Source of the DNA: Pseudoleptotrichia goodfellowii
Lineage (GTDB): Bacteria > Fusobacteriota > Fusobacteriia > Fusobacteriales > Leptotrichiaceae
Length of the DNA: 64,000 nt
Assembly: GCF_007990505.1 (NCBI RefSeq)
Contig: NZ_AP019822.1
Location: 1,240,001 to 1,304,000, forward strand
Reading direction: 5' to 3'
This document shows positions 35,692 through 41,054 of this stretch, one piece after another. The notes below the pieces were generated by a model. It was not told where the DNA came from and did no database searches. It saw only the letters and a list, made by a program, of their open reading frames with translations. Each line of letters starts with the position of its first letter. The first letter of the stretch is position 1. Both the position numbers and the translations under genes were made by a program.

Positions 35692-36267
35692 TTATCCGTT
35701 TGCTCTTTCCATGTATTCGCCTGTTCTTGTATCAATTTTGATTTTATCTCCTATTACTACAAATAACGGCACCTGTAAAGTGTACCCTGTAGAAATTGTA
35801 GCAGGTTTTGTAGCCCTTCCTATTGTATCTCCTTTTAATCCCGGTTCAGTATAAGTAACTTCTCTTACTACAGTATTAGGTAATTCAACTCCTACCGGTG
35901 TTCCTTCGTACATCAACACTTGTATTACCATTTCTTCCACAAGGAAGTTTACTGCATCTCCCAAATCTTCTTCTGTTAATGCAATCTGCTCAAATGATTC
36001 CTGATCCATAAAGAAATATTCTCCTTCGGACTCATATAAAAACTGCATTTGATTTCTGTCCAGTATAATATCGTCCATCATTTCAGTAGATAAAACTGTT
36101 ATTTCCTGAACTTTCCCCGACATCAAATCTTTTATTTTAAATTTCATTTCAGCTGCTCTTGCTTTTTTCCCCGAAGTAGACTGGTGTCTGTCAGCTCTTA
36201 ATATTAAATAAGGTACTCCGTCCTTTCTGTATGTACTTCCTTGTCTTAAATCCATTGCGGCTTTCAT
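35692..36267 (-). CDS. efp: Elongation factor P with an atypical tip loop
   Basis: EF-P binds between the ribosomal P and E sites and relieves stalling at polyproline. The 191-residue protein has the three-barrel family pattern with PNTVVREVTYTEPGLKGDT and the C-terminal signature GDKIKIDTRTGEYMERA. The domain I loop reads HQSTSGKKARAAEMKFK: G33-K34 align with the modified lysine position of E. coli, but the surrounding PGKG motif is replaced and K35 and R37 are also close. No modification enzyme gene is in the window. AGGAGG precedes the ATG. Confidence 0.95.
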   Translation of the reverse strand: MKAAMDLRQGSTYRKDGVPYLILRADRHQSTSGKKARAAEMKFKIKDLMSGKVQEITVLSTEMMDDIILDRNQMQFLYESEGEYFFMDQESFEQIALTEEDLGDAVNFLVEEMVIQVLMYEGTPVGVELPNTVVREVTYTEPGLKGDTIGRATKPATISTGYTLQVPLFVVIGDKIKIDTRTGEYMERANG

Positions 36268-36294
36268 TTCTCTGTTTCCTCCTAAATTTTCTTT

Positions 36295-37014
36295 TTATTT
36301 TATTGTGTCAATCGAATATGTTACAGTTACGACCGATCTTAATTTTTTATACATTTGGTTTTCTGCAGGTTCATCTATACGTTTGGGATCTTCTCTATCC
36401 TCAAGAACTTCAAACTGTCCCTGCGTCATTGATTTCACTTCTCCAACCTTGTTTTTATTTACTTTCAGCATTTCAAAAGCTCTTGATTCGGCATTTTTCG
36501 ATGCTTCTATAAGTAAATCTTTTTTATATTTTTCGATTCCTGTTATATAAAACTCAGGTTTTATAACTTCCAAATTATTAAAAGTTAAAGTCAATTCAGA
36601 TAATTTTTCATAAATCTGATCTATTTTCTCAACTTCCTTCAAGTTTACTGAAATTGTCTGAGTTATTTCATAATCGGTTATTTTGTCGGTATCACCTGCA
36701 AAATTCGGCTTTATCTTCAAATTTCCCGTATCATAATTTTCTTCTTCTATTTTTTCGGAGGTCAATATTTCATTTACCGCCGTTTCTTTTTCAGCTATAA
36801 TTTTTTTCGCATCTTCAAGATTTTTATTTTTGGCAGTGAGTATAACTCTTACAACAGCTCTGTCGGCTTTTATTCTTCTTTCCGCAACACCTTTTACAGT
36901 TATCTGATTTTCACTTTTATTTACTTTGTCCAATGCATTGGAAATCAAGGCTCCCGAAACGATAAGACCGAATGTCAGTATTGTGGAAATTATTATAAAT
37001 TGCACTTTTTTCAT
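36295..37014 (-). CDS. SIMPL-domain (DUF541) envelope protein
   Basis: A 239-residue protein with an N-terminal membrane anchor or signal segment (MKKVQFIIISTILTFGLIVS), then a SIMPL domain starting ITVKGVAERRIKADRAVVRV and including ITQTISVNLKEVEKIDQ. Such proteins are periplasmic or membrane-attached; their biochemical role is unclear, with links to oxidative stress in some bacteria. It has an excellent promoter at 37075-37103 and lies 27 bp upstream of efp. Confidence 0.85.
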   Translation of the reverse strand: MKKVQFIIISTILTFGLIVSGALISNALDKVNKSENQITVKGVAERRIKADRAVVRVILTAKNKNLEDAKKIIAEKETAVNEILTSEKIEEENYDTGNLKIKPNFAGDTDKITDYEITQTISVNLKEVEKIDQIYEKLSELTLTFNNLEVIKPEFYITGIEKYKKDLLIEASKNAESRAFEMLKVNKNKVGEVKSMTQGQFEVLEDREDPKRIDEPAENQMYKKLRSVVTVTYSIDTIK

Positions 37015-37074
37015 TATTAAATCACATACTTTCCTGTATATTCAAAATTTTATTTTATCTGAATTTTCCCTTGA

Positions 37075-37103
37075 ATTATAATTTATTTTAATAAAAATGT
37101 CAA
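37075..37103 (-). promoter_or_regulatory. Promoter of the SIMPL-protein gene
   Basis: Consensus TTGACA (37098-37103) and TATAAT (37075-37080) with a 17-base spacer. The -35 box overlaps the stop codon of the truncated Abi_2 frame. Confidence 0.8.
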
Positions 37104-37207
37104 CAAAACTCTTTAAATTCTTCTTCATTTTCTATTATCATTCCTCTTTTTTTAAATAATTCTACCTGCTGCTTAAATGTTAAAAAAGTTATTGATTTTT
37201 CACACAT
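37100..37207 (-). pseudogene. Truncated Abi_2 (AbiF/AbiD-type) gene, 35 codons left
   Basis: The frame begins at ATG 37207 and encodes MCEKSITFLTFKQQVELF followed by KKRGMIIENEEEFKEFC and a stop. It matches by recall the conserved start of Abi_2 proteins (pattern F.E/KQ...L..RGL.I.....A..FL). Full-length members have about 300 residues; everything after the first helical segment is missing. The stop lies inside the -35 box of the next gene, consistent with a deletion that joined the remnant to that promoter. AGGGGG lies upstream of the ATG. A peptide could still be made. Confidence 0.6.
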
Positions 37208-37221
37208 AATTTCCCCCTAAT

Positions 37222-37274
37222 AAAAAGCCCTGCATAGGTCGGAACCTTGTATTATTTAAAATACTGCAGGGGGA
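37222..37274 (-). ncRNA. abiF-like structured RNA upstream of the Abi_2 remnant
   Basis: On the minus strand CCCTGCA (37265-37271) pairs with TGCAGGG (37228-37234), enclosing two small hairpins: GTATT/AATAC, and GGT/ACC around TTCCG-type loop sequence. This gives a compact three-way junction. A conserved RNA motif called abiF is known upstream of Abi_2-domain genes; position and form fit, but I cannot run a covariance search. The leading CCCCC could alternatively pair with the GGGGG of the ribosome-binding site (37213-37217). Confidence 0.5.
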
Positions 37275-37286
37275 TTGATATAATTC

Positions 37287-37315
37287 ATAGTACATTATTT
37301 TCTTCAAAATGTCAA
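37287..37315 (-). promoter_or_regulatory. Promoter of the structured RNA / Abi_2 remnant
   Basis: TTGACA (37310-37315) and TACTAT (37287-37292) with a 17-base spacer. The expected transcript begins a few bases before the RNA structure. Confidence 0.65.
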
Positions 37316-37328
37316 TCAAAATTTCAAC

Positions 37329-38552
37329 TTATTTCTCTATATTTTCCAGAACCGCATCGGCACCGTCTTTTATGTCCCACGTCAGATTTTCCAGACCCGA
37401 ATCGTTCAATATTTTATTTGCCCATTTTTTTGCATTTTGATTGTCTTTTTTATCCTCAAAATAAAGTAACATCAGATTATACATCGCTTCGGCATCTTTC
37501 TGATTGGCAGACAGTATATAATATTTTTCAGCTTCTTTCAGATTCTTTTTTTTATAATAATGCAGTGCAACCATATACTGTGCCGATGAATCTCCTTCAT
37601 CAGCTGCAATCTTATACCACTTATATGCTTCTTCAGGCTGTTTTTCGCTCTCATAAATTAATCCCAAAGCGTAGGCTGCTATGGAAAGTTTTCGATTGTA
37701 AGCCTCCTCCAAAACTTTTTTTCCTTTTTCTTTATCACCTACATCATAATAGTAAAATGCACCTAATTCAAAATAGGCTCTTTCTGAATATTTTTCAGCT
37801 TCAATATATTTTTCTTCAGCTTCTTTATATTTTGATTCATCAATAAAATTTTCCGCCTCTCTTGACAAATAAAAATATTTTTCATCTTTTTCACTTCCGG
37901 TCATATAATCTATCCATGTTTTCTGGCTTCTTGTAATACCTATAAGACCTTTTGTCCCCAAAAATCTTCTTTTCCACTCTCTTACTTTCTCTTTATTACC
38001 CTTGAGAAAATTAAGAAAAATAACTTTATACATCGCATCACTGTCATTATTTTCGGCAGCTTCTATATACCATTTTTCAGCTTCTTCGAATTTTTTTTCA
38101 TTTTCATATATTCTTGCCAGTTCATATTGAGCATCCGAATCTCCGTCTTTCGCTGCCAACGTATACCATTTTTTTGCTCCTGCAATATCGTTTTTCTCAT
38201 ATGCCTTATATCCTAAAAAATTTGCAGCATCGACTACTTTATGTATATTATAGGCTTCCTCCATTTTTTTTATTCCCGTTTCTCTGTTTACATTGTAATA
38301 GTACATTACCGCTATTTTATAATATCCGTATTTATTGTAAGCAGTAGCCATTTTATAATATTTTTCAGCTTTTTTAAAATCTCCCTTTTTTTCATATTTT
38401 AAAGCTATTTCGGATAATTTGGAGTATTCCTTATTTTTCTCTTCCTGATCCATAAATGCTGCTCCGCATTGAATAAACATAAGCAAAATGACTAAAATTG
38501 TCATAATTCTTTTTAAAGCTGAATTTTTTCCTTCTTTTTGACTTCTTTTCAT
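37329..38552 (-). CDS. Sel1-repeat lipoprotein
   Basis: A 407-residue protein with a signal peptide and lipobox FIQC (C29). Nearly the whole mature part is Sel1/TPR repeats, for example AGAKKWYTLAAKDGDSDAQY, EEAEKWYIEAAENNDSDAMY and EEAYKWYKIAADEGDSSAQY. Sel1 proteins are scaffolds in envelope or signalling complexes. It shares design with the lipoprotein at 30326-31534. Function unknown. Confidence 0.85.
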   Translation of the reverse strand: MKRSQKEGKNSALKRIMTILVILLMFIQCGAAFMDQEEKNKEYSKLSEIALKYEKKGDFKKAEKYYKMATAYNKYGYYKIAVMYYYNVNRETGIKKMEEAYNIHKVVDAANFLGYKAYEKNDIAGAKKWYTLAAKDGDSDAQYELARIYENEKKFEEAEKWYIEAAENNDSDAMYKVIFLNFLKGNKEKVREWKRRFLGTKGLIGITRSQKTWIDYMTGSEKDEKYFYLSREAENFIDESKYKEAEEKYIEAEKYSERAYFELGAFYYYDVGDKEKGKKVLEEAYNRKLSIAAYALGLIYESEKQPEEAYKWYKIAADEGDSSAQYMVALHYYKKKNLKEAEKYYILSANQKDAEAMYNLMLLYFEDKKDNQNAKKWANKILNDSGLENLTWDIKDGADAVLENIEK

Positions 38553-40965: not shown

Positions 40966-41054
40966 AGAATATATGCTCGTATAGCAAGCGAGCAGGATAA
41001 TATAAAGAAACGCTGAATGATTATAAAATCCTGTCGATTCGGCAGGATTTTTTT
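40966..41054 (+). ncRNA. Probable ~88-nt small RNA or leader
   Basis: A strong promoter is followed within 90 bases by a hairpin GCTCG...CGAGC and a strong intrinsic terminator AAATCCTG/CAGGATTT with TTTTTTT, with no supportable gene between them. A short TCGG/CCGA alternative pairing spans the terminator tail, which would allow attenuation control of what follows. What follows is only a doubtful 64-aa frame, so an independent small RNA is the simpler reading. I do not recognise the RNA. Confidence 0.5.
41025..41054 (+). terminator. Terminator of the small RNA
   Basis: Near-perfect stem AAATCCTGTCG/CGGCAGGATTT followed by seven T. Confidence 0.8.

Follow-up and report, generated by a model that had tools for sequence, protein, structure and literature searches.

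A probable remnant of an Abi_2 RNA-toxin module in Pseudoleptotrichia goodfellowii, and the family of leader RNAs to which its RNA belongs

A truncated unit between two genes

Two connected questions are raised by the short, promoter-bearing unit that lies between a TPR/Sel1 repeat gene (37329-38552, minus strand) and a SIMPL-family (DUF541) gene (36295-37014, minus strand) of Pseudoleptotrichia goodfellowii: what was this unit, and is its structured RNA kept for some use now that most of the gene behind it is missing? Positions are those of the window, the whole 64-kb stretch of DNA that was analysed. Read on the minus strand, the unit has the order promoter, RNA, ribosome-binding site and an open reading frame (ORF) of 35 codons. 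The sigma-70-like promoter (37287-37315, minus strand; TTGACA at 37315-37310, a 17-nt spacer and TACTAT at 37292-37287) matches 10 of the 12 consensus positions and thus deserves the label "consensus-like" given to it in the preliminary description. The leader RNA (37216-37282, minus strand) is resolved by folding and by a covariance model into a three-way junction with a U-run: stem P1 pairs 37271-37266 with 37233-37228, P2 pairs 37264-37260 with 37253-37249, and P3, capped by UCCG, pairs 37247-37244 with 37239-37236, all on the minus strand. Its 49-nt core has a folding energy of -15.9 kcal/mol (z = -3.6), a value equalled by one of 200 shuffled sequences, in agreement with the earlier claim of a compact three-way-junction RNA. 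Together with the U-run in the sequence on its 3' side (37222-37226, minus strand), P1 looks like an intrinsic terminator; a simple terminator scan reports none at this RNA because the P1 stem encloses two hairpins. The ribosome-binding site (37213-37217, minus strand) is GGGGG. When the full leader is folded, pairing of this GGGGG with an upstream CCCCC gives a competing structure of -18.1 kcal/mol, which had been suggested to act as a built-in switch. The relatives of the unit read AGGAG at this site, however, and the pairing is private to the window copy and not conserved.

The ORF (37100-37207, minus strand; product MCEKSITFLTFKQQVELFKKRGMIIENEEEFKEFC) is identified by profile matches as the N-terminal stub of an Abi_2/AbiD/F gene. 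It matches PHROG 2158, "abortive infection resistance protein" (E 4.7e-5, profile positions 4-32 of 315), and PADLOC AbiD (E 2.2e-4, positions 6-33 of 277), and by these alignments it resembles the first ~33 residues of AbiD/F proteins, that is, the correct end of the family. The 35-residue peptide has no match in Pfam, PF07751 included, being too short for the full Abi_2 model, and NCBIfam gave nothing useful; the proposed Abi_2 kinship is hence upheld by the two profiles and not by the Pfam model originally named for the purpose. The HEPN domain is absent, and with the HEPN motif missing from the stub, the unit in the window is a remnant and not a working member of its family.

The stop codon of the stub (TGA, 37102-37100) overlaps the TTGACA (37103-37098) of the next promoter, as had been noticed from the bare sequence. 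This promoter of the SIMPL gene (37075-37103, minus strand; TTGACA-17-TATAAT) matches the consensus at 12 of 12 positions and is ancestral: two genomes of the same genus (G002 and G001) have the SIMPL gene with the same promoter (TTGACTTTTTTAATAAAATAAACTATAAT) and lack the Abi unit. Since the SIMPL gene and its promoter occur there without the unit, the latter is best read, from this comparison, as having been inserted between the TPR gene and the SIMPL gene. A deletion then appears to have taken the gene from about codon 35 to the SIMPL -35 box, and therefore no toxin could be made. The end of the deletion at the -35 box may mark the furthest reach that would spare the SIMPL promoter. Sequence error cannot explain the deletion. 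Three other Abi_2 genes of this genome (L009, L010 and L011) have frameshifts in AT-rich DNA, for which such errors could account in part.

A family of structured RNAs upstream of Abi_2 genes

When 60 related genomes were searched at the DNA level, the promoter plus RNA turned up in eight more copies, 82-85% identical to the window's, and behind each of the eight stands an Abi_2 gene or what is left of one. Of these genes, those of G030, G018 and G012, other Leptotrichiaceae genomes, are intact and encode the HEPN motif RNLSAH; in G021 the gene contains a single TGA, in G025 a frameshift and in G032 an internal deletion, and in G024 and G027 most of it has been deleted. Throughout the window copy and these eight, the RNA core is nearly identical, and the promoter position and -35 box are common to the window and the Leptotrichiaceae copies. 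The preliminary view of the unit as truncated, with its promoter and RNA apparently intact, is borne out by the intact Abi_2 genes standing 3' of the same RNA in G030, G018 and G012. A scan of genome contigs for the exact RNA-core pattern pointed to one named genome, Leptotrichia hongkongensis JMUB5056 (G021). More broadly, ten intact relatives carry the HEPN motif RNxxAH as RNLSAH, RNLCAH, RNVCAH and similar.

The seven closest copies contain too little variation for covariation to be judged, and a wider set was needed. A covariance model built from these seven (R1) matched further Fusobacteriota copies directly upstream of Abi_2 genes, and a second model (R2) was built from 13 Fusobacteriota sequences, the window's among them. 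In the 13-copy alignment (A3) all 15 base pairs are kept, with 100% of cells paired, although the alignment was fitted to the model and so leans towards the structure. Double-sided changes occur in 10 of the 15 pairs, against 2.6 expected from shuffles (0 of 500 shuffles were as good), and sliding the pairing partners abolishes the signal. In 14 copies that had no part in model building, 98.8% of cells are paired and nine pairs show double changes. A UNCG-type tetraloop caps P3 in several copies, among them the window's (UCCG); in most copies the end of P2 is UUAAAU, and AUCAA precedes P1 in nearly all. The window RNA has the features of the family: three covarying stems, AUCAA before P1 and a U-run after it. 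It scores 89.7 bits with R2, the second highest value among the copies, its own sequence being one of the 13 from which that model was made. Every conserved element of the RNA is retained in it, an outcome that selection would give too, the species being represented by one genome.

As an independent test we have employed 12 Abi_2 loci from phage and plasmid records, chosen by protein similarity only and mostly from Bacillota: streptococcal, lactococcal (including TP712) and lactobacillus phages, plasmid records of Enterococcus, Aerococcus and Nicoliella, and one Fusobacterium record. R2 matched directly upstream of Abi_2 in 10 of the 12 at E < 0.05; the eleventh gave E 0.3, and at the twelfth a comparable hairpin is visible on inspection. 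Matches of R2 weaker than about E 0.002 were plain terminator hairpins (L184-L187). On the strength of the covariation and of these loci, the leaders form a genuine family of structured RNAs that goes with Abi_2 genes, and by the same comparison the link between RNA and toxin is independent of taxon. Scans of viral contigs with the exact RNA-core pattern and two looser ones gave no matches, and a protein search of IMG/VR returned no close homologue of this toxin subfamily. In streptococcal and lactococcal phages (L165-L168, L170, L174 and L175) the Abi_2 gene with this RNA comes immediately after the gene for lysin, close to the phage genome's end. The Fusobacterium record (L171, NZ_CP084075.1) is a 2.1 Mb Fusobacterium vincentii sequence entered in PLSDB as a "plasmid", and it looks like a chromosome.

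The preliminary description had taken the RNA for an abiF RNA. The Rfam abiF RNA (RF03085) is likewise a short structured RNA upstream of Abi_2 genes; unlike the window RNA, however, it is a 37-nt motif with the consensus CCCGCCAAGCCUCUCAACGAUGCUCAAAUCGGCGGGU, whose structure differs from the three-way junction. With membership defined as a covariance score of at least the gathering score of 37 bits, RF03085 had no match in 36000-38500 at E values up to 5, none in the genome itself, and nothing above the cut-off in 98 Fusobacteriota genomes, Leptotrichiaceae included. Given the missing match and the different consensus, membership of abiF in the Rfam sense is rejected. Nor does any family of Rfam 15 cover these leader RNAs. 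What is new here, judged against Rfam 15 and the open-access literature, is the RNA family, and the window copy itself is an ordinary remnant. Elsewhere in the window (40969-41022, plus strand) there is a match to the Rfam 6A RNA (RF02925) of 51.1 bits, above its gathering score.

Decay of the module and fate of the orphan RNA

Among 24 RNA loci of the Fusobacteriota, nine have an intact gene, four a gene with one or two small lesions, seven a large deletion or a stub, and four no recognisable gene. As these sequences stand, the relatives present a graded decay in which the RNA is still recognisable, and copies with a dead toxin and a recognisable RNA are common in Leptotrichiaceae. The 5' end alone survives in the window copy, in copy b of G024 and in copy b of G030, and no copy keeps the 3' end alone; the independent events are too few for this to count as a bias of dead copies towards retaining the 5' end. 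In G013 and G032 an in-frame internal deletion has left, 3' of an intact RNA, an Abi_2 mini-ORF of ~98 residues that joins the N- and C-terminus; at the same locus G021 has a stop codon and a broken RNA stem (L148, L133 and L163 for the three genomes together). Another RNA copy, copy b of G018, lies directly behind a co-oriented gene whose product ends in an FtsZ-like manner, and looks like a case of terminator reuse.

In the genome of the window itself R2 finds two matches, both at dead genes. The second (L011, G000:C1:182500-185200, near C1:183.4k) is a more distant copy of this class of RNA, located immediately 3' of the tmRNA gene; its Abi_2 gene is frameshifted and encodes RNLSAY instead of the HEPN motif RNLSAH. 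The only intact Abi_2 gene of the genome (L008, near C1:449.6k) has a different leader, which R2 matches with 18 bits, and then on its terminator. That leader (G000:C1:448600-451200, positions 815-955) consists of a promoter, a CUGUAUC...GAUACAG hairpin and a separate GC-rich terminator. At L009 (G000:C1:1006300-1009000) a frameshifted Abi_2 gene has upstream, at ~830-1000, a promoter-like and hairpin-rich stretch that seemingly points away from the gene. The leaders of L009 and L010 share GCGAG...GUCUUACC-like pieces, possibly belonging to a second RNA type.

How, then, is the orphan RNA to be understood? That the unit is a chance resemblance, a promoter-like and hairpin-like piece of AT-rich DNA followed by a random 35-residue ORF, has next to nothing to recommend it: such elements are short, the DNA is AT-rich and the Pfam Abi_2 model misses the stub, but alignments of 105 nt at the identity given above lead to DNA directly upstream of Abi_2 genes, the two profile matches of the stub fall at the correct positions, and the Abi N-terminal pattern occurs once in the six frames of the window. 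The homologous intact loci refute this reading. We consider it unlikely, though far less so, that the hairpin persists as the intrinsic terminator of a co-oriented upstream gene, its link to a toxin gone. Here that gene would be the TPR gene, which ends 46 nt before the RNA on the same strand, with no other terminator found there; toxin-dead RNAs in G018 (copy b), G028, G039, G024 and G027 similarly lie 20-48 nt behind a co-oriented gene, and the one in G018 (L191 1320-1400, G018:C1:317.3k) has neither a recognisable -35 box nor an Abi_2 gene. This pattern was perceived post hoc, however, in few independent cases, no obvious strong terminator is seen at the empty site of G002, which implies that one is not strictly required, and the window promoter is still good, whereas a mere terminator would not need one.

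It is less probable again that the RNA is retained as a trans-acting antitoxin, an anti-addiction RNA or decoy directed against AbiF toxins of a related kind, whether encoded in the genome or brought in by phages and plasmids. For such a role speak the fully functional look of the window RNA and its promoter, the ability of a C. difficile counterpart to neutralise AbiF in trans (PMC12373285), the fact that Bacillota phages and plasmids carry modules with the same class of RNA, and the many toxin-dead copies with a recognisable RNA. Against it, an intact toxin with this class of RNA is missing from the genome (L011 is dead and the leader of L008 differs), and the search of IMG/VR gave no close homologue of the toxin subfamily. 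Moreover, in two sets of relatives, small samples from lineages other than the window's, changes in the RNA have kept pace with those in the DNA around it. In the first set, G024 and G027, which have the same dead toxin in common, the RNAs differ at 5 of ~69 positions, the gene remnants at 11 of 515 and the flanks by 3.7-6.2%; the RNA is thus not slower and, if anything, faster than the remnant (p = 0.03), and in G027 part of the conserved AUAUCAA is lost. Copy b of G021 and G013 share an internal deletion and have diverged by 7.7% in the RNA and 8.5% in the remnant, with P1 broken in the former (-4.9 versus -11.9 kcal/mol). The earlier proposal that retention implies a use, for example as a decoy, is therefore not supported, and the sequences of the relatives lend no weight to the notion that the RNA is kept for a purpose after toxin loss. 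More doubtful still is the wider version of the idea, in which an uncatalogued AbiF antitoxin RNA class of Fusobacteriota and Bacillota phages has its orphans retained as anti-addiction RNAs, able to disarm any AbiF module of their own class on arrival.

We have good, if incomplete, confidence in a plainer account: the unit is a decayed Abi_2 (AbiD/F) RNA-toxin module and its orphan RNA a leftover. The window RNA is most likely such a leftover, at an early stage of decay and perhaps of some use as a terminator. It is probably still transcribed, because its promoter is intact, and would serve at most as the terminator of the TPR gene.

Known RNA-toxin systems and the meaning of the family

The layout of a type III toxin-antitoxin system, with RNA and toxin under one promoter and a terminator, predicted here from the sequence, between them, is seen in the window and in the intact relatives. 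ToxIN, of this type, resembles it in having a small RNA with a terminator directly upstream of an RNase gene, again under one promoter. ToxI is made up of tandem repeats, and the endoribonuclease ToxN has a different fold; the RNA class of the window, in contrast, has one copy and is paired with a HEPN-family toxin.

Closer in architecture is AbiF_Cd-RCd22 of the Clostridioides difficile prophage phi027, which has the same succession of promoter, structured RNA, terminator and Abi_2 HEPN gene; its short RNA is the main transcript, read-through supplies the mRNA, and RCd22 neutralises the AbiF_Cd toxin in cis and in trans (PMC12373285). The two differ in that the RF03085 motif occurs twice in RCd22, whose terminator hairpin stands apart (PMC12373285), whereas the window unit has one three-way junction with its own closing stem before the U-run, has a truncated gene and is known from sequence alone. 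By analogy with RCd22-AbiF, most transcripts of an intact module of the present kind would stop at the U-run, giving an RNA of ~60 nt, some would read through into the gene for the HEPN RNase, and the RNA would bind this RNase and keep it inactive. The closest solved structure to the intact G030 relative is the protein of 8VZ6 (residues 10-261, E 1.7e-20), an AbiF-RNA complex. This is PbAbiF-AbiFr of a Prevotellaceae bacterium, in which a single upstream RNA acts as a type III antitoxin (PMC12737573); the likeness to the G030 relative lies in the protein and in the single RNA upstream. The relation to Cas13 that had been evoked for the locus has a basis in the literature, where it concerns the AbiF protein family (PMC12373285, PMC12737573); for a stub without a HEPN motif it is of no consequence.

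Cas13 is held to descend from AbiF toxins with RNA antitoxins, and it is among the RNAs of these toxins that the origin of guide RNAs is being looked for. No Leptotrichiaceae locus among those searched is covered by the catalogued abiF motif. With a second AbiF leader RNA, different in structure and covarying well, now recognised in Fusobacteriota and in Bacillota phages, there are more RNAs to test, and the death of such modules may be studied in Leptotrichia, where the loci grade from the intact module to the RNA alone.
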